A stretch of 64,000 nt of DNA from Xylanimonas cellulosilytica DSM 15894 (lineage in GTDB: Bacteria > Actinomycetota > Actinomycetes > Actinomycetales > Cellulomonadaceae). The DNA lies in the NCBI RefSeq assembly GCF_000024965.1, contig NC_013530.1, forward strand, positions 62,001-126,000, in the 5' to 3' direction. Positions 34,029 through 46,702 of this stretch are shown piece by piece. The notes under the pieces were generated by a model. The model was not told where the DNA came from, did no database searches, and was given only the letters and a program-made list of their open reading frames with translations. How positions within the stretch are numbered: the stretch's first letter is position 1; every line of letters starts with the position of its first letter. Both the position numbers and the translations under genes were made by a program.

Positions 34029-34058
34029 TTGGGAACCACTGACGACGGTGCGCATACT
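34029..34058 (+). promoter_or_regulatory. Candidate promoter of the binding-protein pair
   Basis: TTGGGA at 34029-34034 and CATACT at 34053-34058 are separated by 18 bases, 40 bases before the ATG of the first binding protein. Hexamers are imperfect but spacing is good. Confidence 0.4.
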
Positions 34059-34098
34059 TATGCACACCGCAGTGAAGTCACCCACCCGGAGTTTGATC

Positions 34099-34983
34099 AT
34101 GCGCACTCGTCCCGCCCTCCTCGTCGCGACCGCCGTGGCTGCGACGCTCACCCTCGGCGCCTGCACGTCGGCGTCCCAGGACCAGGGCGGCAGTGCGCCG
34201 AGCGCCGCCGCCACCGTCGTGAAGGACGAGGCCATCGCCGCGCTCGTGCCGGCGGCCGTCGCCGCGGACGGCAAGCTGACCGTCGCGGCCGAGCTGTCCT
34301 ACGCCCCGCTCGAGTTCGTCGACGCCGACGGCAAGACGCCGGTGGGCCTCGACATCGACATCGCGACCGCGATCGCCACCGTCATGGGGCTCGAGGTGGA
34401 CGTCCAGTCGGCCCAGTTCGACTCGATCATCCCGGCCATCGGCACGCGGTACGAGGTGGGCGTCTCGGCGTTCACGATCACCCCCGAGCGCCTCGAGACC
34501 GTCACGATGGTCAGCTACTTCAGCGCCGGGTCACAGCTCGCGGTCCAGGCCGGCAACCCGGACGGCGTCGACCCGGACGACCTGTGCGGGCTCACCGTCG
34601 GCGTCCAGACCGGCACCGTGCAGCAGGAGGAGCTCGAGGAGCTGAGCGCCGCCTGCGAGACGCCCATCGAGATCCTCCCGTACGACTCGCAGGCCACCGT
34701 CACCGCGAACCTGGTGGGCGGCAAGCTGCAGGCCATGTACGCCGACTCGCCCATCACGGCCTACGCCGTCGAGCAGGCCGACGGCGCCCTTGAGACGCTC
34801 GGGGAGATCCGCGACGCCGCCCCCTATGGTGTGGTCGTCGCGAAGGACGACCCGGAGCTGGCCGAGGCCGTGCGGGCCGCGCTGCAGCAGCTCATGGACG
34901 ACGGCACGCTGGCCGAGATCGCCGCTCACTGGGGCAACGAGGCCGGCGCCCTGACCACCGCCGAGATCAACCCGGCCGTCTGA
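34099..34983 (+). CDS. Amino-acid ABC transporter binding lipoprotein (first of a tandem pair)
   Basis: A 294-residue family 3 solute-binding protein. The signal peptide ends in lipobox LGAC (about residues 17-20). The mature domain has LTVAAELSYAPLEFVDADGKTPVGLDIDIATAIA and the amino-acid binding strand FDSIIPAIGTRYEVGVSAFTITPERL. The ATG at 34099 with CCGGAG upstream gives a normal signal; an earlier in-frame start would add a hydrophilic extension. The next gene is a close paralogue. No permease follows directly; a matching permease and ATPase lie at 45.7-47.5 kb beyond the lasso cluster. Confidence 0.9.
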   Translation: MRTRPALLVATAVAATLTLGACTSASQDQGGSAPSAAATVVKDEAIAALVPAAVAADGKLTVAAELSYAPLEFVDADGKTPVGLDIDIATAIATVMGLEVDVQSAQFDSIIPAIGTRYEVGVSAFTITPERLETVTMVSYFSAGSQLAVQAGNPDGVDPDDLCGLTVGVQTGTVQQEELEELSAACETPIEILPYDSQATVTANLVGGKLQAMYADSPITAYAVEQADGALETLGEIRDAAPYGVVVAKDDPELAEAVRAALQQLMDDGTLAEIAAHWGNEAGALTTAEINPAV

Positions 34984-35025
34984 CCCGACTGCCCCACCAG
35001 CACGTCCTCGCCACCCGGAGTCATC

Positions 35026-35922
35026 ATGCGTACCCGTTCCACCCTGCCCGTCGCGCTCGTCGCCGTCGCGGCTCTCGCCCTGAGCGCCTGCTCGTCCGCC
35101 TCGCAGGACGGCGACGCGGGCGCCACCGGTGAGGCGTTCGACCTCGCCAGCATCACCAAGGACGCCGACATCGCCGCGCTCGTCCCGGCCGCGGTCGCCG
35201 AGGACGGCAAGCTCACCGTCGGGTCCGACCTGACCTACGCTCCGGCCGAGTTCGTCGACACCGACGGCAAGACGGCGGTCGGCTTCGACATCGACATCAT
35301 CCGGGCGGTCGCGAACGTCCTGGGCCTCGAGCTGGACGTCCAGTCGGCCACGTTCGACTCGATCATCCCCGCCGTCGGGACCCGCTACGAGGTGGGTGTC
35401 TCGTCGTTCACGATCACCCCTGAGCGTCTCGACGCCGTCTCGTTCGTCAGCTACTTCGACGCCGGCTCGCTGTTCGCCGTCGCGGAGGGCAACCCGGACG
35501 GCATCGACCCGGAGAACCTGTGCGGTGCGACCGTCTCGGTGCAGACGGGCACCATCCAGCTCGACGCGCTCAACGCCGCGAACGAGACGTGCGACGAGCC
35601 GATCAAGCTCCTCACCTTCGAGTCGCAGGCCGACGTGACCTCCAACCTGGTCAACGGCCGCGCCCAGGCCATGTACGCCGACTCGCCCGTCACGGGCTAC
35701 GCCGTCCTGCGGGCCGACGGCGCCATCGAACTCCTCGGTGAGATCCACGACTCGGCGCCCTACGGCATCGTCATCCCGAAGGACGACCTGGAGCTCGGCG
35801 AGGCCCTCCGTGCGGCACTGCAGAAGCTCATGGACGACGGCACCCTCGCGCAGGTCGCCGGCGCCTGGGGCCAGGCCGAGGGCGTGCTGGCCACGGCGGA
35901 GATCAAGACCGCGGCCGGCTGA
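35026..35922 (+). CDS. Amino-acid ABC transporter binding lipoprotein (second of a tandem pair)
   Basis: A 298-residue paralogue of the preceding protein, sharing most landmarks (LTVGSDLTYAPAEFVDTDGKTAVGFDIDII, FDSIIPAVGTRYEVGVSSFTITPERL, YADSPVTGYAV). Lipobox LSAC anchors it. The pair arose by tandem duplication; changes cluster in the ligand-contact and hinge regions, so the two may bind different amino acids. A CCCGGAGTCATCATG start context resembles that of the first copy. It is followed by a strong hairpin (35947-35977). Confidence 0.9.
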   Translation: MRTRSTLPVALVAVAALALSACSSASQDGDAGATGEAFDLASITKDADIAALVPAAVAEDGKLTVGSDLTYAPAEFVDTDGKTAVGFDIDIIRAVANVLGLELDVQSATFDSIIPAVGTRYEVGVSSFTITPERLDAVSFVSYFDAGSLFAVAEGNPDGIDPENLCGATVSVQTGTIQLDALNAANETCDEPIKLLTFESQADVTSNLVNGRAQAMYADSPVTGYAVLRADGAIELLGEIHDSAPYGIVIPKDDLELGEALRAALQKLMDDGTLAQVAGAWGQAEGVLATAEIKTAAG

Positions 35923-35946
35923 GCCAGACCGGCACCGCACACCCGG

Positions 35947-35977
35947 AGCCGCCGCTGCCTACCAGGCAGCGGCGGCT
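35947..35977 (+). terminator. Hairpin terminator after the binding-protein pair
   Basis: Perfect 14-bp arms (AGCCGCCGCTGCCT at 35947-35960 and 35964-35977) around a 3-base loop, followed by CTCTCTG. It closes the transport transcript before the lasso cluster. Confidence 0.75.
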
Positions 35978-36097
35978 CTCTGCAATCGCTACGAGCCTCG
36001 GGCTCCCGGGGTACTGGTGCCGAGGGTCTCGCACTACGTTCCCCGATGGCGGGCGACGACGTCCGCCGTCCATGCGATCGCAGGAGGGGAGGGACAC

Positions 36098-36223
36098 ATG
36101 CCCAGCTACGCTGCTCCGAAGCTCACCCGCATCGGCTCGTTCAAGACCGTGACGAAGAGCCTTGGCAAGGCGCCGCACAACGACATCTTCCGGCGCCCCG
36201 CGGTCTTCGTCATCTACCTGTGA
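36098..36223 (+). CDS. Lasso peptide precursor (streptomonomicin-like)
   Basis: A 41-residue precursor. Residues 4-19 match the actinobacterial leader recognition motif YxxPxLxxxGxFxxxT exactly (Y4, P7, L9, G13, F15, T19). Thr19 is at -2 to a predicted cleavage after Lys20, leaving a 21-residue core. The ring would be SLGKAPHND, closed between the Ser1 amine and Asp9 side chain; the tail continues with IFRR at 10-13 and ends VIYL. From memory, streptomonomicin has the same length, ring size and Ser-Leu-Gly, Pro6, Asn8-Asp9-Ile10, Pro14-Ala15 and Val18-Ile-Tyr20 residues; here Lys4, His7, Arg12 and Arg13 make it more basic. AGGAGGGGA precedes ATG 36098. Confidence 0.9.
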   Translation: MPSYAAPKLTRIGSFKTVTKSLGKAPHNDIFRRPAVFVIYL

Positions 36224-36240
36224 CGAGATCTGCTCTCCGG

Positions 36241-36281
36241 AGGTCGGCGCGAGCCGGGACGAACCTGGCTCGCGCCGACCT
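36241..36281 (+). terminator. Hairpin between lasso precursor and cyclase genes
   Basis: 18-bp arms at 36241-36258 and 36264-36281 with one G-T wobble and a 5-base loop. It likely attenuates read-through so that the precursor message exceeds that of the processing enzymes. Confidence 0.65.
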
Positions 36282-36336
36282 CTGCCGTCCAGGCCCCGGC
36301 AGTCCGCACGGGGCACGAGCCTGATCTGGAGTCGGT

Positions 36337-38238
36337 GTGCCCGTCGTCGTCGTGCCCGATACCCCCCTTCCCCCCGGGATGGCGGCCGACCTCGTCGACC
36401 GCGTCGGCCCGGTCCTGTTCCGCCACCGGTCGGGCCGGGCGTGGATCCTGGGGACGACGGACGGACGACGGGTCGTCCGGGCCCGGACCCGGTTCGTCGA
36501 CGTCGTCCTGCTGGGCGACGGCTCGCACGAGACGGACGAGGCGGCGCTCGCCACTGCGGTCGCCGACGCACGCTCGGTCGACGGGGTGCCCGCCGAGCGT
36601 TTCACCGAGGCCGACGTGCTCCTCTTCGCCCGCAGCGACGGCCGCATGCGCTCCCAGGCACCCCCGTTCCTGACGCGGTCCCTCTGCTGGACCACCGTCG
36701 ACGACGTCCCCGTGATCTCGGACGAGCAGCTCACGCTGCAGCGGCTCGCGGATCTCGCCCCCGACGTCGACGTGCTGGCGAGCCGGCTGACGGACGGCGA
36801 GATCAGCGTCCCCTTCGGTCTGCGCAGCGTGTGGTCAGGGCTGCATCCGCTGCGCCCCGGCCAGTGGCTCGACTCCCGCGCCCGGGAGGCTCCCCGGCCG
36901 GTGACGTGGTGGCGGCCGCCGCGGCCCGAACGATCCCTCGACGACCTGTCGGGGGAGCTGTCCGACGCCCTGTCCGCCGCGCTGCGCACCCGCCTCGGAG
37001 CACACCGCGAGGTCAGCGCCGACCTCTCCGGCGGGCTCGACTCCACCACGCTCAGCTTCGTGCTTGCCGACGTGCTGGACCGCCCGCACCACACCCTGTT
37101 CCTGGCGTCGGACAACGTCGCGAACGGTGACCGACCGTGGGCCGCACGTGCCGCCGAGGAGCTGGGCACCCGTCACGTCGTCGTGCCGTACCGGTCGGTG
37201 CTGCCGCAGATCACGGACGCCGCGGCCGGGACGATCGACACCGCCCCGGAGGGCCCGAGCATCGCCTCGGTGTCCGCGGCCGCCGTGCCGCTGATCGAGG
37301 AGGTGCTCCGCGGGACCGGCTCGACGCTGCACCTCAACGGCCACGCGGGGGACGCGCTCTTCGGGCCCGTGTCGACGGTGCTCTGGTCGCTGGCCCGCTC
37401 CCGTGCGAAGGGCCGGTGGCGCCAGCTGTGGCGGCAGCGGCTGGTCAACCGGTACCCGCTCGGCGCGACCGTGCGGATGCTGGCCCAGCGCGGCACGTAC
37501 CGCGACGACCTCGAACGGTTCGCCCGGGACGACTTCCGGCAGCCCGAGGACGAGCTGGCCACCTACGCGCGCTGGGCAGCGCTGCCACGGGTGCATCCGG
37601 CCCTCACCGACGCCGCCCGCGAGCACGTGCGGAACCTGGCCCGGCGCGAGCTGGCCGAGGGGCACGACGGCTACGGCGCCGACCGCACCGTCCACCAGAT
37701 CGTCCACTTCCTCACGGTGCACGGCGCCGACGTCCGCCGCATGAACCACGCCCGCACCCCCGGCGCCGCGGTGACGTTCGACAGCCCGCTCCTCGACCGC
37801 CGGGTCGTCGAGGCCGCACTGGCGCTGCGCATCGGCGACCGGGCACGCCAGTACCCGGTCAAGCCGCTGCTCGCCGCCGCCCGCCCGCCGCGGATGGCCA
37901 TCGACTACTTCACGCGGTCGGACAAGGGCGACTACACGGCGGAGGTCTTCGAGCAGCACCGGGCGATCGCCCCCACGGTGCGCGAGCTGTTCGCCGACGG
38001 CTCCGTGCTGGAGGACCTGGGTCTGGTCAGCGGCGAACGGGTCCTGCGGTCCGTCACCCAGTTCTCGGTGGACGGGAGCGAGTACCGCGACCTCGACCAG
38101 ATCGTCTTCACCGAGCGGTGGCTGCGGTCGCTCCCCGCCGGGCAACCCGCCGGGCAACCCGCCGGGCAGCCCGCCGGGCAGCCCACGGCGTCCGCGGACC
38201 CGCGTCATCGAGAAGGGGAGCACGCACCATGCGCCTGA
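36337..38238 (+). CDS. Lasso cyclase (asparagine-synthetase-like, protein C)
   Basis: A 633-residue ATP-dependent macrolactam synthetase. The PP-loop VSADLSGGLDSTTLSF and the later LNGHAGDALFGP are the AMP-forming amidotransferase signatures; the protein lacks the catalytic Cys2 of glutaminase domains, as lasso cyclases do. It activates the Asp9 carboxylate as an acyl-adenylate and closes the ring on the new N-terminus. GTG 36337 starts it. The C-terminus carries four AGQP units from a 12-bp tandem repeat. Its stop lies inside the next gene start (38229), so the RRE is coupled. Confidence 0.92.
   Translation: MPVVVVPDTPLPPGMAADLVDRVGPVLFRHRSGRAWILGTTDGRRVVRARTRFVDVVLLGDGSHETDEAALATAVADARSVDGVPAERFTEADVLLFARSDGRMRSQAPPFLTRSLCWTTVDDVPVISDEQLTLQRLADLAPDVDVLASRLTDGEISVPFGLRSVWSGLHPLRPGQWLDSRAREAPRPVTWWRPPRPERSLDDLSGELSDALSAALRTRLGAHREVSADLSGGLDSTTLSFVLADVLDRPHHTLFLASDNVANGDRPWAARAAEELGTRHVVVPYRSVLPQITDAAAGTIDTAPEGPSIASVSAAAVPLIEEVLRGTGSTLHLNGHAGDALFGPVSTVLWSLARSRAKGRWRQLWRQRLVNRYPLGATVRMLAQRGTYRDDLERFARDDFRQPEDELATYARWAALPRVHPALTDAAREHVRNLARRELAEGHDGYGADRTVHQIVHFLTVHGADVRRMNHARTPGAAVTFDSPLLDRRVVEAALALRIGDRARQYPVKPLLAAARPPRMAIDYFTRSDKGDYTAEVFEQHRAIAPTVRELFADGSVLEDLGLVSGERVLRSVTQFSVDGSEYRDLDQIVFTERWLRSLPAGQPAGQPAGQPAGQPTASADPRHREGEHAPCA
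38137..38184 (+). repeat. 12-bp tandem repeat (four units) at the cyclase 3' end
   Basis: GCCGGGCAACCC twice and GCCGGGCAGCCC twice, coding AGQP. The repeat adds a disordered tail and can change copy number. Confidence 0.85.
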
Positions 38239-38489
38239 AGGAAGGCCTGGAGATCGTCGACGTCGAGGACGGCCGCGTCCTGCTGGACTCGCGCAAGGGG
38301 GTGTACTGGCACCTCAACGCGTCCGCCATCGGCGTGCTGGAGGCGCTCGCGCAGGGGCGCACCGTCGACGACGTCGTGCGCGACGTGGTGCGGCAGACCG
38401 GTGCGGACGAGGCCGTCGTGCGGGCCGATCATGTGGAGCTCGTCCGCGAGCTCCGCAAGGCCAGGCTCATCACGGGGGAACCGTCGTGA
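38229..38489 (+). CDS. Lasso RRE protein (PqqD-like, B1)
   Basis: An 86-residue PqqD-type RiPP recognition element: MRLKEGLEIVDVEDGRVLLDSRKGVYWHLNAS with three strands, then helices (VDDVVRDVVRQTGADEAVVRADHVELVRELRKARLI). It binds the precursor leader motif and delivers it to the protease and cyclase. It overlaps the cyclase end and the B2 start (GTGA), so the module is tightly coupled. Confidence 0.92.
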   Translation: MRLKEGLEIVDVEDGRVLLDSRKGVYWHLNASAIGVLEALAQGRTVDDVVRDVVRQTGADEAVVRADHVELVRELRKARLITGEPS

Positions 38490-38911
38490 GCGCGCCGGTC
38501 CTCGCCGAACGGCTCACCCGGCTCGGGTTGCGGCAGGCGCTGCCCGCCCGGCTGGCGACGACGACGGCGTTCGTCGTCGCGGCCCTGCCGCCCTGGGCGA
38601 TCCGCGCCGTCCTGACGGTGGCCGTGCGAGGAGCGCGACCGGCCGCGGCGCCGGACGTCCTCGGATGGCGCACGGCGGTCAACAGCGTGAGCCGGCGCTG
38701 TGCCGGCCAGGGCTGCCTGCAGCGGTCGATCGCCGTCGTGCTGCTCGCCCGGCTGCACGGCGTGGCCCCGGCGTGGAAGACGGGGTTCCGGCCCGATCCG
38801 TTCGTCGCTCACGCCTGGGTCGAGGTCGACGGCGAACCCGTGGGCGAGCCCGCCGCCGTCGCGCACTTCCGTGCCGTCCTCAGCGTGAACCCCCGACCTG
38901 CCCGCCCCTGA
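38486..38911 (+). CDS. Lasso leader peptidase (transglutaminase-like, B2)
   Basis: A 141-residue protein of the lasso B2 family. The catalytic Cys77 lies in RRCAGQGCLQRS and the His in VAHAWVEVDGEPVGE (His109), with a following acid. It removes the leader after Lys20 of the precursor. The GTG start at 38486 overlaps the B1 stop. The stop is followed by a 15-bp direct repeat (ACCTGCCCGCCCCTG at about 38896-38925) before the exporter. Confidence 0.9.
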   Translation: MSAPVLAERLTRLGLRQALPARLATTTAFVVAALPPWAIRAVLTVAVRGARPAAAPDVLGWRTAVNSVSRRCAGQGCLQRSIAVVLLARLHGVAPAWKTGFRPDPFVAHAWVEVDGEPVGEPAAVAHFRAVLSVNPRPARP

Positions 38912-38943
38912 CCTGCCCGCCCCTGCAACGAGTGGAGTGCACC

Positions 38944-40764
38944 ATGGCCCAGACGTCGGTGATGACCGAAGAGCGGCGGGGAGCCGACGACGCGGCGCCC
39001 GCCCCGGCCCCGCCGCCCCGGACGGCAGGGCTCGGGGACGTGTTCCGCCTGCTGGGCCCGTACCGCGGGCGCATGGTCGTCGCCTTCGCCCTCGGGCTCG
39101 TGAGCACGGTCGTGGGCGCGTTGCAGCCTCAGGTCGTCGCGCGCGCGGTGGACGCGTTCGACGGGAGCGTGCCGGGCGCGACCATCGGGCTCATGGTGGG
39201 GCTGCTGCTCGCCAGCGCCCTGTTCACGAACGCCCAGCAGCTCGTCATGGAGCGTTCCGGCGAGCTGTTCGCCTTCCACACCCGGCGGCGGCTCGTGCGG
39301 CACCTCTACACGCTGCCCATCGGCGTCCTCGAACGCAGGGACCGCGCCGACCTCGTCTCGCGCATCACCACCGACGTGAGCCAGCTCCGCATGGTCATGA
39401 GCTCCGGGATCGTCGAGCTGGCCACGAGCGTGGTGGCCGTCGTCGTCTCGATCGTCATGATGGCGTTGATCGACGGGCTGCTCCTCGCGCTGGCGGTCGC
39501 GACCATCGTCGTCGCCCTCGTCGTCATCGTCCTGATCGGGCGCGGGACGACGCCCGCCGGTCTGCGGCTCCAGGACGCGCTCGGCCGCCTGGCGGGCTCG
39601 GTCACCCGATCGCTCGGCTCCTTGCGGACCATCCGGGCGACGGTCTCCACGGACCGCGAGGCCGACGTCACCGTCGGCGAGGCGGAGGAGGTGCTCAAGG
39701 CGGGCTACGCCGCGGCCACGTACCGCGCCGCGATCCAGACGTTCGCGTCGGTCACGATCCAGATCCTGCTCATCGTCATCGTCGCCGTCGGGGCGCTGCG
39801 GGTCGCGGCGGGCGAGCTCGGGGTCGGCGAGCTGAGCGCCTTCATCATGTATCTCATGCTCATGGCGGCGCCGATCACGCTCAGCGCGGGGATCTTCGCG
39901 GCGCTCGGCGAGGCCATGGGCGCGCTGTCCCGGGTGCTGGCCGTGCACGACATCGAGGTGGAGCAGGACGTCCAGGTGCCGCCGGCGGTCCCGGTGGCCG
40001 GGGCGGGCGACGCGCCCACCTTCGAGCTGGTCGGCGTCGGCTTCCGCTACCCGGAGCACCCCGACGCGGAGCCCGGGGGAGAGGCGTGGGCGCTGCGGGA
40101 CGTGTCGCTGCGGTTCGCCGCCGGGACGACCACGGCCGTCGTCGGGCCGTCCGGTGCGGGCAAGTCGACGATCTTCGCGCTGCTGGAACGCTTCTACGAC
40201 CCGACCGAGGGGGAGATCCGCTTCCGCGGGCAGGACGTGCGCCGCCTCTCGCGCGAGGAGCTGCGCCGCCAGATCGGCTACGTCGAGCAGGATGCCCCCG
40301 CGCTGTCGGGGACGGTCCGCGACAACCTGCTGCTCGGCGCCCACGACGCGTCGGACGCCGCGTGCACCGAGGTGCTCCGCCAGGTGAACCTGCTGGCGCC
40401 GGGCACCGACCCGGCGGCGCTCCTCGACACCCAGGTCGGGGAGACGGGGGAGCTGCTCAGCGGTGGGGAGCGGCAGCGGCTGGCCATCGCCCGTGCGCTG
40501 CTCGCGGACGCGCCGATCCTCCTGCTCGACGAGGTCACCTCGAACCTGGACAGCAACAACGAGCGCATGATCCAGGCGCTGATCGGCTCCGCGGACCGCC
40601 GCCGCAGCGTCGTCGTGATCGCGCACCGGCTCTCGACGGTCGTCTCGGCGGACGCGATCGTCGTCGTCGACGGCGGGCGCGTCGTCGCCCAGGGGACGCA
40701 CCACGAGCTGCTGGGCACCTCCGAGCTGTACCGCGAGCTGGCCCGCAACCAGCTCCTCGGCTGA
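38944..40764 (+). CDS. Lasso peptide ABC exporter (fused membrane and ATPase domains)
   Basis: A 606-residue half-transporter: six membrane helices (about 45-330), then an ATPase with Walker A GPSGAGKST, signature LLSGGERQRLAIARAL and Walker B ILLLDEVTSNLDS, and H-loop IAHRLST. No N-terminal peptidase domain is present, as leader removal is done by B2. In lasso clusters this D protein exports and gives self-protection. It ends 15 bases from a convergent response regulator gene. Confidence 0.92.
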   Translation: MAQTSVMTEERRGADDAAPAPAPPPRTAGLGDVFRLLGPYRGRMVVAFALGLVSTVVGALQPQVVARAVDAFDGSVPGATIGLMVGLLLASALFTNAQQLVMERSGELFAFHTRRRLVRHLYTLPIGVLERRDRADLVSRITTDVSQLRMVMSSGIVELATSVVAVVVSIVMMALIDGLLLALAVATIVVALVVIVLIGRGTTPAGLRLQDALGRLAGSVTRSLGSLRTIRATVSTDREADVTVGEAEEVLKAGYAAATYRAAIQTFASVTIQILLIVIVAVGALRVAAGELGVGELSAFIMYLMLMAAPITLSAGIFAALGEAMGALSRVLAVHDIEVEQDVQVPPAVPVAGAGDAPTFELVGVGFRYPEHPDAEPGGEAWALRDVSLRFAAGTTTAVVGPSGAGKSTIFALLERFYDPTEGEIRFRGQDVRRLSREELRRQIGYVEQDAPALSGTVRDNLLLGAHDASDAACTEVLRQVNLLAPGTDPAALLDTQVGETGELLSGGERQRLAIARALLADAPILLLDEVTSNLDSNNERMIQALIGSADRRRSVVVIAHRLSTVVSADAIVVVDGGRVVAQGTHHELLGTSELYRELARNQLLG

Positions 40765-40779
40765 TCGGCGCCGGCCCGC

Positions 40780-41442
40780 TCAGCGGGACTCGTGCAGCAG
40801 CCCGGCCCGGTAGGCGAGGACGGCGAGCTGCGTGCGGTCGTTCACGTCGAGCTTGGCGAACATGCGCCGCAGGTAGGTGCGGACCGTCTCGAGGCTCAGC
40901 ACGAGCTCGTCGGCGATCTGCTGGTTCGAGCGGCCCAGCGCGACCAGCCGGACGACGTCGACCTCGCGCTGCGAGAGCACCTTGCCCACGAACGGGTGCG
41001 GGTGGTCGGGGCGCGGGGGCGCCAGGTGGCGGATCAGCCGCCCGGTGACCTCGGGGGCGAGCAGGGCGTGCCCGGCGTGCACGGAGCGGACGGCGGCGAG
41101 GACCTCCGCGGGCGTGGCGTTCTTCAGCAGGAAGCCGGAGACGCCCGCGGTCAGGGCGTCGTGCACGTACTCGTCGAGGTCGAAGGTCGTGAGCATGACG
41201 ACGCGTACCTGCCCCCCGGCGAGGATCGCGCGCGCGGCGTCGAGCCCGGACAGGCCGGGCATCTGCACGTCGAGGAGGGCCACGTCCGGGGTGCGCTCCC
41301 GGGCCAGCCGCACCGCCTCGGCCCCGTCCCCCGTCTCGGCGACCACGACGAACCCCTCCGTGCGGTCGAGGAGCTTGCGGTACACGGACCGCAGCCGTGC
41401 GTCGTCGTCCGCGAGCAGCACGCGGATCGGGCTCTGCTCCAT
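40780..41442 (-). CDS. NarL/LuxR-family response regulator
   Basis: A 220-residue regulator with an intact receiver (LLADDDARLR, acceptor Asp in VALLDVQMPGLSG, Lys in GFLLKNATP) and a LuxR helix-turn-helix (LSQREVDVVRLVALGRSNQQIADEL, SLETVRTYLRRMFAKL). It is divergent from a histidine kinase 60 bases away, its obvious partner, and lies next to the lasso exporter. The pair probably controls the adjoining ABC-2 transporter or the lasso genes. Confidence 0.92.
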   Translation of the reverse strand: MEQSPIRVLLADDDARLRSVYRKLLDRTEGFVVVAETGDGAEAVRLARERTPDVALLDVQMPGLSGLDAARAILAGGQVRVVMLTTFDLDEYVHDALTAGVSGFLLKNATPAEVLAAVRSVHAGHALLAPEVTGRLIRHLAPPRPDHPHPFVGKVLSQREVDVVRLVALGRSNQQIADELVLSLETVRTYLRRMFAKLDVNDRTQLAVLAYRAGLLHESR

Positions 41443-41502
41443 GCCTCACCAGTACCACGCGGGCCCCGGCCGCACGGCAGGGGCGGTCGGTACTCTCACG
41501 AT

Positions 41503-42675
41503 ATGGGTGACCGCACCGACGAGCAGGCACCGCCGGGACCTGCGGCGATGGTCCGCCGCCTGGTCGACCTGCTCGCGGTGGTCGTGGTCGTCGGGGTCTT
41601 CTGGTTGCCCGCCACGCTCGAGGCGCGCTCGGCCGCGCGGCTGACCGCCGGGCTCGTGCTGGCCGCGGCGGTGGCGTGCGCGATGCTCGTGCGCCGTCGG
41701 GTGCCGACGACGGCGGTCCTGGTCGCGGGGACCGCCACCGTCGTCGCCACCGCCCTGGGCACCTGCCAGGACTTCATGGTCGCCACCGCGTGGTGCCTGT
41801 ACCCGCTGGCGCTGCGCTCCGCGGCCCGCACGCGGCGGCTGATCCGCGTCCTCGTCGTCGCGCTGCTCGCCACGGCGGCGATCGCGGGAATCCCGCCCGG
41901 GCAGGGCAGCCAGGTCGTCCAGTCGACGATCCTGTCCGTGGCCGCGCTGTGCGTCGCGTGGCTGCTCGGCGGGATGGTCGGCCGGCAGATCGAGCTCGCC
42001 CGGCAGGCCGAGAGCGCCCGCGTGCGCCTCGAGGTCGCACGCGACGTGCACGACGTCGTCGGGCACGCGCTCGGCCTGGTCAGCGCCGAGGCCGGGGTGG
42101 TGCGGTCGCTGCCCGACGCCGACGAACGCGAGCTGCGCGAGTCGCTCGCCGACATCGAGGTGCACGCCCGGCGCGCGCTCGAGGAGATGCAGTCGCTCGT
42201 GCGTGGGCTGCGTGGGCTGCCCGGGCTGCCCGGGCCGCACGGAGGGTCGACCGGGCCGCTGCGGCCGGCGGGTCCGCCCGCCGAGCGGCTCACCGAGCTG
42301 GTCGACGCCACGCGGGCCACGGGCGTGGCGATCGACGCCCGGATCGACCTCGACGCGCCGGTGGGCGAGGAGGTGGCCGCGTTCGTCGTCCGCGTCCTCC
42401 AGGAGTCCCTGGCGAACGTCGTGCGGCACGCCCCGGGCGCCGCGTGCACCGTCGTCGTCGAGCCCGACGGCGACGACGTCGTGGTCCGGGTGCGCGACGA
42501 CGGCACGGGCTCCGGCGGGCGCCCGGGCGCCGGGGTGGGGTTGCGCGGCATGCGGGAGCGCGCGCGGCTCGTGGGCGGCGCGGTCGCGTGGGGACGCGCG
42601 CCCGACGGCGGCTTCGAGGTGACCGCACGGGCGCCGCGCGCGGCACCTTGGCAGGGATTGTCTACTTTCGGGTGA
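41503..42675 (+). CDS. Sensor histidine kinase, NarL-partner type
   Basis: A 390-residue kinase with four to five N-terminal membrane segments, HisKA_3 (VARDVHDVVGHALGLVSAEAGV), a Gly/Leu/Pro-rich linker and an HATPase domain (ESLANVVRHAPG, VRDDGTGSGG, GVGLRGMRERARLVGG). A -10-like TACTCT at 41491-41496 lies 6 bases before ATG 41503 without a Shine-Dalgarno site, suggesting leaderless expression. It resembles LiaS/DesK-like kinases that sense envelope damage. The ABC transporter genes follow on the same strand. Confidence 0.9.
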   Translation: MGDRTDEQAPPGPAAMVRRLVDLLAVVVVVGVFWLPATLEARSAARLTAGLVLAAAVACAMLVRRRVPTTAVLVAGTATVVATALGTCQDFMVATAWCLYPLALRSAARTRRLIRVLVVALLATAAIAGIPPGQGSQVVQSTILSVAALCVAWLLGGMVGRQIELARQAESARVRLEVARDVHDVVGHALGLVSAEAGVVRSLPDADERELRESLADIEVHARRALEEMQSLVRGLRGLPGLPGPHGGSTGPLRPAGPPAERLTELVDATRATGVAIDARIDLDAPVGEEVAAFVVRVLQESLANVVRHAPGAACTVVVEPDGDDVVVRVRDDGTGSGGRPGAGVGLRGMRERARLVGGAVAWGRAPDGGFEVTARAPRAAPWQGLSTFG

Positions 42676-42710
42676 CGCGGCGCCGGGTGGGCGCCCGGCA
42701 CGATCGCAGC

Positions 42711-43415
42711 GTGATCCAGATCTCGAACCTGACCAAGCGCTACCGCGGAGCCGCGGCGATCCAGGACGTCACGTTCACGGCCCGGCCCGGCCGGGTGACG
42801 GGCTTCCTCGGCCCCAACGGCGCCGGCAAGACGACGACGTTGCGCATCCTGCTCGGCCTCGCCGCACCCACCGGCGGCACGGCCACGTTCGACGGCCGGC
42901 GGTACCGGGATCTCAGGGCGCCGCTGCGCACCGTCGGGGCGCTGCTCGACGGCCCGGGAGCGCTGCCGGACCGCCGCGCCGTCGACCACCTGACCTGGAT
43001 CGCCCGGTCGAACGGGATCTCGCCGCGGCGGGTCGGCGCGGTGCTGGAGCTCGTGGGGCTGTCCGACGTGCGGCGCCGCCGGGTGCGGACCTTCTCGCTG
43101 GGCATGGGGCAGCGGCTGGGGATCGCCGCCGCGCTCCTCGGCGACCCCGAGGTCGTCGTCCTCGACGAGCCGGCGAACGGGCTCGACCCCGACGGGATCC
43201 GCTGGGTGCGCACCCAGACGCGGCGCTTCGCGGCCGAAGGGCGCACGGTGCTGGTCTCGAGCCATGTGATGGCCGAGATGGCGGAGACCGCCGACGACAT
43301 CGTCATCATCGACAAGGGGCGGGTGCTGGCGACGGGGTCGCTGGCCGAGGTCACCGGCGGGCACGCGTCGCTCGAGCAGGCCTTCTTCGCCACCATCGGC
43401 GGCGGTGCGCGATGA
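42711..43415 (+). CDS. ABC transporter ATPase, bacitracin/lantibiotic-immunity (BcrA) type
   Basis: A 234-residue single ATPase: Walker [14 protein letters not shown], signature FSLGMGQRLGIAAAL, Walker B VVVLDEPANGLDPDG and H-loop VSSHVMAEM. NG-LDP-DGI is typical of the BcrA/LanF self-protection group. GTG 42711 begins the domain directly. Its stop overlaps the next gene (ATGA). Together with two small permeases it probably protects the producer from its lasso peptide or from other envelope-active peptides. Confidence 0.9.
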   Translation: MIQISNLTKRYRGAAAIQDVTFTARPGRVTGFLGPNGAGKTTTLRILLGLAAPTGGTATFDGRRYRDLRAPLRTVGALLDGPGALPDRRAVDHLTWIARSNGISPRRVGAVLELVGLSDVRRRRVRTFSLGMGQRLGIAAALLGDPEVVVLDEPANGLDPDGIRWVRTQTRRFAAEGRTVLVSSHVMAEMAETADDIVIIDKGRVLATGSLAEVTGGHASLEQAFFATIGGGAR

Positions 43416-44203
43416 CGATGACGCGCCTGGTCCGGGCAGAGCTGACGAAGATCGGCACGCAGCGCAGCGTGTGGGTCGCGATGGGCGTGGTGCTGGCGAT
43501 CCAGGTCTTCGCCGGTTGGCAGGCGCTGTCGCTCTACGCGGGCGCCGTCGCCCGGATGACGCCCGACGGGATCGTCGAGGTCTTCACCGGGCAGCCGCAG
43601 GCGGCCAACCAGGCGATGATCGAGAACCTGGTGTCGTCCTCGCTCGAGATGAGCATGTTCCTGCCCGTCGTGGCCGCGCTGCTCGCCGGGCAGGAGTTCC
43701 AGCACCGGCAGCTGCGCACGAGCCTGCTCGCGGTCCCGGCGCGGGGGCACCTGGTCGCGGCGAAGCTCGCGTCCGCCACCGTGTTCCTCCTCGTGCCCGT
43801 GCTGCTCGTCGTCGCGACGTCGACCACCTTCACGTACCTCGCCATCAAGGACTGGAACCCCGGCCTGCTGCTCGAACCGGCGGCCCTGCGCGGGCAGGTG
43901 GGCTTCGTCGGCTACGCCCTCGCGCTCTGCCTCGTCACGGCCGCGGTCACGATGCTCGCCCGCAGCACGGTGGTCGCGATCGTGACCGTCGTCGTCCTGA
44001 CCGTCATCAGCATGGCGCAGGTCCTCCCGGCCGCGGTCGACGCGCTGCTGCCCGTCAGCGCGGGCCGCAACCTGCTGCTCGACCCGGTCTCCGCGACCGA
44101 CCTGACGGGCGGTGCGACGCTCGCCGCCGTCGTGCTCGTCGGCTGGGTGGTCATCACCGCGGCGTCCGCCGCCGTCTCGATCGCCCGGCGGGACGCCCCG
44201 TGA
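43412..44203 (+). CDS. ABC-2 permease, immunity-type (first)
   Basis: A 263-residue protein with six membrane helices, starting TRLVRAELTKIGTQRSVWVAMG and carrying QEFQHRQLRTSLLAVPARG, the loop conserved in BcrB/LanE-type permeases. It overlaps the ATPase and the following permease by four bases each. It should form a heterodimer with the next protein. Confidence 0.87.
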   Translation: MTMTRLVRAELTKIGTQRSVWVAMGVVLAIQVFAGWQALSLYAGAVARMTPDGIVEVFTGQPQAANQAMIENLVSSSLEMSMFLPVVAALLAGQEFQHRQLRTSLLAVPARGHLVAAKLASATVFLLVPVLLVVATSTTFTYLAIKDWNPGLLLEPAALRGQVGFVGYALALCLVTAAVTMLARSTVVAIVTVVVLTVISMAQVLPAAVDALLPVSAGRNLLLDPVSATDLTGGATLAAVVLVGWVVITAASAAVSIARRDAP

Positions 44204-44943
44204 GGGGCCCGTCCGCCACCGACCGGGTCCGCGCCGAGCTCCTCAAGATCTGGACCACGCCCGCGACCTGGGCCGCCCTGGCGGTCACGCTCGCGGCCCA
44301 CGTGCTGCTCGGCTGGATCGCCGGCGGTACCGAGCTGCGCATCGCCGGCACGTCGGGCGCCGTCCCGCTGGGGCAGTCGGGGGCGCTCATGCTGGCACCC
44401 GTCTACGTCTTCGCGGCCGTGGGCGTGTTCGCGGCCGGCACCGAGTTCGCCGGCGGCCAGCTCCGCACCAGCCTCCTGGCGGTCCCCGGGCGTGCGGCGC
44501 TGTTCGCGGCCAAGCTCACCGCCACGGCGCTCGTGTGCACGGTCGCGGCCGTCGTCGTCGTCGCGCCCGGGTACGTGCTGCAGCACCGCGTCGCGCTCGC
44601 CGACGGCAGGCTCCCCTGGTCCGACGTCGCAGCCGGGATCGGGTCACGCGTCGCCGTCCACGTGCTGCTCGCCGTCGTCGGGCTCGGGGTCGCGTGGCTC
44701 GCCCGGTCCGTCGTCGTGCCGATGATCGTGCTCGTCGTCGTCGGCCTGCTGGCCGCGCCGACCCTGCGGGACTCCGTCCCCGCGGTGGTGGCCCGCCTCC
44801 CGCACGACGCCGCGCTGAGCGCCGTCGGCACGCCCGCCGGACCCGAGGCGCTCACGCGCACGGCGGGCCTCGCGGCGCTCGCGCTGTGGGGTGCCGTGCT
44901 CGCCGCAGCGGCATGGGCTGCCCTCGCCAGGCGTGATGCCTGA
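44200..44943 (+). CDS. ABC-2 permease, immunity-type (second)
   Basis: A 247-residue relative of the previous protein (ATDRVRAELLKIWTTPATWAALA; GTEFAGGQLRTSLLAVPGRAALFAAKLTATAL), with six helices. The shared GxxLRTSLLAVPxR loop shows the two genes arose by duplication. GTG 44200 overlaps the first permease stop. The end overlaps the FHA-like gene. Confidence 0.87.
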   Translation: MRGPSATDRVRAELLKIWTTPATWAALAVTLAAHVLLGWIAGGTELRIAGTSGAVPLGQSGALMLAPVYVFAAVGVFAAGTEFAGGQLRTSLLAVPGRAALFAAKLTATALVCTVAAVVVVAPGYVLQHRVALADGRLPWSDVAAGIGSRVAVHVLLAVVGLGVAWLARSVVVPMIVLVVVGLLAAPTLRDSVPAVVARLPHDAALSAVGTPAGPEALTRTAGLAALALWGAVLAAAAWAALARRDA

Positions 44944-45637
44944 GCGGCACGTCGAGAGGGGGCGCGTTTACGACCTGATCACCGTCCAGGGCCCGGCACC
45001 GGTAGGACGTCCGCCGGCCCAGCTCAACCTGGCGCCGGGGGAGTCCGCCACGGTGGGGGTGTGCCGGTGCGGGTCGTGCGACCTCAGCCTGCGGGTCGAC
45101 GACGTCGGCGCCGAGGCGTTCGCCGCGCAGATCACGGCGGCCCACGGGTACTGGCTCGTCGCCAACCTGTCGGCCCACCACCCCATGACGGTCGAGAACG
45201 TGGACGACCGCAACCAGTACCTCATCGTCGACCCGGGACGCCAGGGCATGCCGGTGCCGTTCGAGCTCTCGCAGGTCGGGCCGGCCGCGGCGCCGAGCGC
45301 CCCCAAGGTGGTCGTCTTCGGCGCCGAGCCGCGGTCCGCGCCGTCCCGGGCACGAGCGTGCCCGGCGGCCCGCACCCGCCCGTTCCTCGACTCCGGCGCC
45401 CTCTACTTCCGGGTGCTCCGCGAGCTGTGCCGGCCCCGACTGCAGGGCCGGTGGGGTGCACCCCTGCCGACGTCGTCGACGATCGCGACGACGCTCAGCA
45501 CGGGCTCCCAGCCGCTGAGCACCCGCGCCGTCGACGCGCACATCCGGTACGTCAGCCAGAAGGTCGGCCTGAGCCCCGGCAGCGGCCGGGAGGCCCTCGT
45601 CGCGCTCGCGATCCGGTCGGGTGTCTTCCTGCGGTGA
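44936..45637 (+). CDS. FHA-like protein with C-terminal helix-turn-helix-like region, last gene of the lasso transport operon
   Basis: A 233-residue protein of uncertain family. Residues about 10-105 have a strand-rich layout with LNLAPGESATVGVCRCGSCDLSLRVDDVGAEAFAAQITAAHGYWLVANLS, which fits a forkhead-associated (phosphothreonine-binding) fold, though the usual GR and S-x-x-H residues are blurred. The C-terminal 70 residues (STRAVDAHIRYVSQKVGLSPGSGREALVALAIRSG) resemble a winged helix. ATG 44936 overlaps the permease stop, so it is made with the transporter. It may regulate or read phosphorylation, but no close function is known to me. Confidence 0.55.
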   Translation: MPERHVERGRVYDLITVQGPAPVGRPPAQLNLAPGESATVGVCRCGSCDLSLRVDDVGAEAFAAQITAAHGYWLVANLSAHHPMTVENVDDRNQYLIVDPGRQGMPVPFELSQVGPAAAPSAPKVVVFGAEPRSAPSRARACPAARTRPFLDSGALYFRVLRELCRPRLQGRWGAPLPTSSTIATTLSTGSQPLSTRAVDAHIRYVSQKVGLSPGSGREALVALAIRSGVFLR

Positions 45638-45745
45638 CGCCCGCGGGGTGACCGACCGTGCCGCGTTCGTCCGGCGGCGCCCCGATCCGGCATCCTTGGG
45701 GATGGTCCGCGCGGCGGATCCTGGAACGTCTGAGGAGGAGCGCCG

Positions 45746-46698
45746 ATGAGCGACCCGATCCCTGACCGCCTCCACGCGCGGCCGGTGCCGCGTCCCGGGC
45801 GGGTGGTAGGCGCCGTCGTCGTGCTCGTGCTCGCCGCGATGGCGGTCCACGGACTCGTCACCAACACGACGTTCCGCTGGGACACCGTGTGGCTGTACTG
45901 GCGCGACATCGTCGTGATCCGCGGCATCGGCTGGACGCTGGTGCTGACCTTCGGCTCGATGGCGCTCGCCGTCACCATGGCGATCCTGCTCGCGGTGATG
46001 CGGCGCTCCGACAACCCGGTGATGCGCGGCGTGAGCTGGTTCTACATCTGGTTCTTCCGCGGCACCCCGGTGTTCGTGCAGCTCACGTTCTGGGGTCTGC
46101 TCTCGGTGCTGTACCCGACGCTGGGCCTCGGCATCCCGTTCGGGCCGGAGTTCGTCACCTTCGAGACCAAGGCCGTCGTCACCGTCTTCTGGGCGGCGCT
46201 GCTCGGCCTGGCGTTCAACGAGGCCGCCTACCTCGCGGAGATCGTGCGCGCCGGCCTCACCTCGGTGGACCCCGGGCAGGCGGAGGCCGCGAAGGCCCTG
46301 GGCATGAAGGACACGACGATCCTGCGTCGCATCGTGCTGCCGCAGGCCATGCGCGTCATCGTGCCGCCCACCGGCAACGAGACGATCTCCATGCTCAAGA
46401 CGACGTCCCTCGTCATCGCGGTGCCGTTCACGCTCGACCTGTTCTACGCGACGAGCGCGATCGGGAACCGGCTGTACCAGCCGATCCCGCTGCTGGTCGT
46501 CGCCTCGATCTGGTACCTGGTCATCACGTCGATCCTGATGGTCGGCCAGTCGTACCTCGAGAAGTACTACGGCCGCGGCTTCGGCACCGAGTCCCCGGCC
46601 CGACGACGGCGCCCCGGCCCGGGCGGGCGTCCCACCCGGCAGCAGGCCATCCAGGCCGCCGGGACCACCAAGGACGACCCCTTCCTGGAGGTGACCCC

Positions 46699-46702
<4 letters not shown>
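45746..46702 (+). CDS. Amino-acid ABC transporter permease
   Basis: A 318-residue HisM/GlnP-type permease with five to six helices: [19 protein letters not shown] and the EAA loop [49 protein letters not shown] basic, Pro-rich C-terminal tail is present. GAGGAGGAGCG precedes ATG 45746. No binding protein adjoins; two matching ones are at 34.1-35.9 kb, on the other side of the lasso cluster. The ATPase start overlaps its stop. Confidence 0.92.

Follow-up and report, generated by a model that had tools for sequence, protein, structure and literature searches.

Among the described lasso peptides, the systems closest to the locus reported here are those of streptomonomicin and siamycin I. Resistance to streptomonomicin maps to WalR (PMC6784204); siamycin I is a lipid II binder, and resistance to it maps to WalKR (PMC8183687). 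In split-B systems, the leader of the precursor is bound by B1 and its cleavage by B2 is B1-dependent, the StmE protein binding the streptomonomicin leader with a dissociation constant (Kd) of 35 nM (PMC5067487). Here, we analyzed a window of 64,000 nucleotides from Xylanimonas cellulosilytica DSM 15894 (main contig, bases 62001–126000; genome size 3.83 Mb; ~74% G+C), which at 36098–45637 carries a cluster consisting of precursor, cyclase, RRE, B2 and exporter genes followed by genes for two-component signal transduction and ABC-2 transport and by a regulator-like gene. As the best explanation of these genes, their homology, their conservation and their insertion, we propose that the cluster is probably functional and very probably encodes a streptomonomicin-family lasso peptide of class II, which likely acts against the cell wall. 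The cluster is a new and well-conserved addition to an already known family, and its novelty is modest.

The open reading frame at 36098–36223 of the forward strand encodes 41 residues, MPSYAAPKLTRIGSFKTVTKSLGKAPHNDIFRRPAVFVIYL. As the preliminary description had it, the translated leader is an exact fit to YxxPxLxxxGxFxxxT with Thr at position −2, and Asp stands at core position 9. The 21-residue core is Cys-free, starts with SLG and has VIY close to its end; closed into a lasso, it would have an [M+H]+ of 2395.340, i.e., the linear core minus one water. The NCBIfam lasso leader model scored 23.3 on the precursor (cut-off 19), and Pfam DUF5972 failed with 14.3 (cut-off 22.6). Could this be a chance frame beside unrelated genes? 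Short open reading frames are frequent in DNA of such G+C content. On the other hand, the leader motif, scanned with F or W allowed, occurred once in the six frames of the window and in none of 60 first-order Markov resamples, and homologous precursors with the same neighbors occur elsewhere. The conserved precursors refute a chance origin, to which we assign a negligible probability.

We then compared the precursor with that of streptomonomicin. The earlier claim of 12 identities over the 21 core positions holds against the published sequence, for which we used PDB entry 2mw3, which displays 20 residues, and the complete core given in PMC12427821; when the streptomonomicin core was shuffled 100,000 times, no shuffle exceeded 8 of 21. 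The leaders are identical at 13 of 20 positions. Furthermore, a PDB sequence search with matches accepted at E ≤ 10 returned three, of which 2mw3 came first (E 0.022), with its 20 residues beginning at the predicted core start. Both peptides have the same predicted 9-residue Ser1–Asp9 ring. They differ in that streptomonomicin has Ser, Tyr, Gly and Tyr where the window core has Lys4, His7, Arg12 and Arg13, so that, counting K, R and H, the basic residues number four versus none. The exact streptomonomicin core was found in genome G1197 (locus L076), behind the leader MSAYEIPTLTRIGKFKDVTK. Its precursor neighbors C, B1, B2, D, an ATPase and both permeases with 43–63% identity to those of the window and a response regulator with 41%; neither the kinase nor orfX had a listed match above 60 bits at this locus. 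The likeness to streptomonomicin proposed in the preliminary description thus extends beyond the core to the leader, the gene content and the cyclase tree discussed below.

The inserted segment and the genes within it are as follows (window positions, strand, and description):

35923..45664, no strand: inserted segment, ends approximate, from comparison with congeners
36098..36223, +: lasso precursor A, with leader MPSYAAPKLTRIGSFKTVTK and core SLGKAPHNDIFRRPAVFVIYL
36337..38238, +: lasso cyclase C, asparagine-synthase-like (Pfam PF00733, 1.2e-27; SGGLDST at residue 231; tree)
38229..38489, +: B1, RRE leader-binding protein (NF033530, 72.9, cut-off 70; PqqD)
38486..38911, +: B2, leader peptidase (NF033537, 85.4, cut-off 33)
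38944..40764, +: D, ABC exporter with fused membrane and ATPase domains (domain search; comparison with relatives)
40780..41442, −: response regulator with a LuxR-type (GerE) DNA-binding domain (domain search)
41503..42675, +: sensor histidine kinase, HisKA_3 (domain search)
42711..43415, +: ABC ATPase (best NCBIfam match TIGR03740, a lantibiotic-protection subfamily, 186.3, under its cut-off of 309.75)
43412..44203, +: ABC-2 permease 1, likely immunity (domain search; gene-content comparison)
44200..44943, +: ABC-2 permease 2, likely immunity (PF12730 under cut-off; gene-content comparison)
44936..45637, +: orfX, without a Pfam or NCBIfam family, with a helical C-terminus in a low-confidence model

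The cyclase, RRE, B2 protease and exporter reported earlier beside the precursor were all recovered, the Asn_synthase domain of the cyclase scoring 97.9 (cut-off 21). With the lasso/ikarugamycin cyclase model NF033561, the cyclase scored 128.7, under the cut-off of 300; the streptomonomicin cyclase is likewise under it, at 121.7. Within the window's genome, the cyclase matched only itself. One Cys and one His of B2 are kept in all eight of the B2 proteins aligned. Near its C-terminus (38134–38181), the cyclase carries a fourfold PAGQ repeat, which does not appear in the consensus that includes its two relatives from the Cellulomonas genus.

We found the precursor in 3 of the 221 genomes of the window's family: its own and two of one other genus, namely G041 (locus L039), taken as Cellulomonas gelida NBRC 3748, whose precursor is 83% identical to the window's, and G099. 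As far as searched, neither cluster has been described. Their cores, SLGKAPHNDIFRRPAIFVIYV and SLGKAPHNDIFRRPAVFVIYV, have two and one of the 21 residues replaced, respectively, and their cyclases share 69% and 66% identity with that of the window. The two replacements in C. gelida offset each other in mass, and its lasso has the same predicted [M+H]+ of 2395.340, which should make production easy to check in that strain. Both relatives have all ten other genes in the same order (51–75% identity), differing in that orfX lies on the opposite strand relative to the window; the transporter genes that flank the cluster in the window had no match in either relative within ~19–20 kb. Might the cluster nevertheless be silent or decayed and make no product? 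In its favor, just one genome among the 11 of the genus carries the cluster. Against decay stand the open frames, which align with the relatives nearly end to end, the motifs present in the cyclase and B2, and a core maintained in two genera. Consequently, we consider a silent cluster very improbable.

Wider searches added more distant relatives. At E 0.1, matches to the precursor profile came from 13 of 394 class-sample genomes and 13 of 396 order-sample genomes; better than 1e-3 were only the window's own genome and G603 in the former, and its own and G668 (1e-4) in the latter. The weaker matches (E 0.0017–0.093) were attributed to chance or to other families of lasso peptides, while G603 and G668 were kept; G435 and G299 have lasso-like leaders with different cores. 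A scan of genome contigs with the three-row precursor alignment gave 29 matched stretches and two reported relatives, C. gelida and a Catellatospora locus (L040), but its patterns were narrow, and the absence of further relatives there carries little weight. The Catellatospora locus was rejected, as its frame lacks a leader ahead of the match and the 20 kb there yielded none of the other cluster genes. With a cyclase profile, 22 class genomes out of 394 (own included) were recovered at 1e-45, and the family of G603 gave 7 out of 341 (G603 included) at 1e-70; G1197, G1113, G1044 and G603 are among these matches. No cyclase relative was found among plasmid records at 1e-40.

A maximum-likelihood tree was built from 26 cyclases, comprising 17 of the 28 class-sample matches (11 were omitted), six from the search in the family of G603, and those of C. 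gelida, G099 and G668. The cyclases of the window, C. gelida, G099, G1113, G1044, G603 and streptomonomicin formed one clade (100/100), within which the window and the two Cellulomonas-genus rows grouped together (100/100) and the branching order is partly resolved. The cores of G1113, G1044 and G603 are SLGSARERDILGFRALIVIHPPA, SLGRLPCNDIFGQKALWTTSPNC and SLGRLSCNDILGFRALWTTSPAC. Outside the seven-member clade, G1018 (core GAGSATERDLLGFRAVFVVHPPW) and G668 (core GAGRAREKDLLGFSALIVIHWPWL) form a pair; G668 sits on a long branch and its placement is unsure, and G603, G668, L045 and L057 are of unusual composition. These two outlying cores (L079 and L082, respectively) start with GAG, have Asp9 and LLGF, and end in VIHWPWL or VVHPPW. 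They are possibly a sister subfamily of lasso peptides.

Judged by its sequence, then, the cluster is a member of the streptomonomicin family, given the cyclase clade and the Cys-free 21-residue core with SLG, Asp9 and VIY. The description of Lys4, His7, Arg12 and Arg13 as new, charge-altering residues stands as far as the count of basic residues goes. A basic residue at position 4, however, is not peculiar to this core: Arg stands there in two other clade members, G1044 and G603, as well as in the outlier G668; G1113 has Arg at core positions other than 4. Within the clade, only His7, Arg12 and Arg13 distinguish the window core and its two Cellulomonas-genus near-copies.

Does the downstream half of the cluster protect its owner? 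Among the eight clusters compared, orfX was listed in four (window, C. gelida, G099 and G1113). It has matches in 8 of the 221 family genomes, four strong (own, C. gelida, G099 and G081) and four weak (E 1e-8 to 6e-12); toward their C-termini, the weak ones show helix-turn-helix matches below threshold. Neither Pfam nor NCBIfam has a model that matched orfX or its three orthologues. Its structure model, built on two sequences, was poor (mean pLDDT, a predicted local confidence score, 57.6), and a PDB fold search with it had no hit at E ≤ 0.001; we therefore do not claim the FHA-like N-terminus that inspection by eye had suggested. orfX is possibly a DNA-binding regulator. In G081, of the same genus as C. 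gelida, locus L093 (5883–11216) retains D residues 455–605 followed by the response regulator, kinase, ATPase, permeases and orfX, and its regulator/ABC/orfX half shares 92.5% DNA identity with that of G099. The G081 genome yielded no precursor, and the 19.9 kb read there contained none of C, B1 and B2. A half retained without biosynthesis fits a role in self-immunity, such a relic being the expected outcome if the retained genes protect against the peptide. G081 offers an "immunity-only" genome for probing self-protection.

How might the system work? B1 would bind the leader, and B2 would cut after Lys(−1). C would then activate Asp9 for bond formation with the Ser1 amino group, closing a 9-residue ring with the tail threaded through it; we propose the Ser1–Asp9 closure because it is the family pattern. 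D would export the peptide, the sensor kinase and response regulator together with the ABC-2 transporter (ATPase and two permeases) would form a self-protection module, and orfX would probably be a regulator. As siamycin I and streptomonomicin suggest by analogy, the most likely action of the peptide is extracellular, on cell-wall synthesis in Gram-positive bacteria, where it might hold the lipid II pyrophosphate; the added Lys, His and Arg residues would then be plausible contacts.

Alternatively, the product could be a real lasso peptide of this family that serves mainly as an autoinducer sensed by the adjacent kinase and not as a killer, which is compatible with the biosynthetic part of our proposal. 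In favor of this, two-component genes are found with the cluster in C. gelida and G099, and in G081 they persist alongside the ABC genes. However, the adjacent ABC-2 transporter, persisting without biosynthesis, fits immunity better, kinase/ABC pairs are common beside antibiotic peptides, and the streptomonomicin locus shows the regulator match without a listed kinase. We therefore regard a signaling peptide as improbable and return to the antibacterial one.

The comparison with siamycin bears on its target. Siamycin I/MS-271, a class I peptide, also has 21 residues and a 9-residue ring and is identical to the window core at 5 of 21 positions. It differs in having four Cys in two disulfides where the window core has Ser1, His7, Arg13 and Ile19; class I membership is marked by four Cys, and the window core has none. 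The ABC ATPase has relatives in both streptomonomicin and siamycin-type clusters: in a siamycin-core cluster (G411) and in a cluster that we label sviceucin-like (G590), it is 61.5% and 57.5% identical to the window's, with B2 at 47% and 52%, the two-component genes shared and the permeases weakly so; in neither cluster does D match over its full length. A further genome, G468, has an ATPase at 60%, its lasso core not located, and in G536, a lasso cluster with another core, the matches are limited to C, B1 and B2.

Several observations weigh against our proposal. The siamycin-core cluster has a cyclase at 33%, outside the clade, a D protein matched over the ATPase domain only (~31%), and permeases at 29–40% over parts; because it shares so little in exporter, cyclase and permeases, the target analogy is slightly weakened. 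The ATPase link to siamycin clusters suggests a relationship at most, because the best ATPase paralogue in the window's own genome reaches 54%. Synonymous core changes number one or two per genome pair, too few to gauge purifying selection. The product of the window is predicted from its genes; no publication on it was found judging from titles and abstracts, with supplements, RODEO tables and MIBiG outside the search. Finally, the target of streptomonomicin was listed as unknown in a 2019 review (PMC6784204); the window cluster and its clade members (the two Cellulomonas-genus cores, G1113, G1044 and G603) matter as a natural variant set for residue–activity tests. A bolder version would make the peptide a disulfide-free, cationic siamycin/streptomonomicin relative that grips the lipid II pyrophosphate through Lys4, His7, Arg12 and Arg13, and would place its genes on a transferable cassette of 11; the immunity half of this cassette, in which orfX would represent a regulator family not yet in Pfam or NCBIfam, would persist alone in neighbors. 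As a whole, we consider this rather unlikely.

The genomic context suggests where the cluster was gained. An insertion of ~9.7 kb lies between the substrate-binding protein gene (35026–35922) and the permease gene (45746–46702) of an amino-acid-type ABC transporter. The downstream permease was found at E 1e-80 in 8 of 11 genus genomes, own included, and not in the other three; all seven other congeners with the permease (L032–L038) have the substrate-binding protein gene directly before it. No precursor, C, B1 or B2 match occurred in the 2.6–4 kb read at these seven loci, and the precursor was found in none of the 10 congeners. In the nearest congener (L032), similarity stops at window base 35922 and restarts at 45665, with 76 bases between versus 9.7 kb here; a finer alignment suggested a shared hairpin just past the first gene, which would place the left end perhaps tens of bases further in. 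Because the flanking genes are adjacent in all seven congeners compared, the cluster was most likely gained at this transporter site. ARAGORN found no tRNA in the window, and the 11 cluster proteins matched no mobile-element family in Pfam or NCBIfam. Before the insertion, at 34048–35922, two amino-acid-type substrate-binding proteins (SBP_bac_3) are encoded in tandem.

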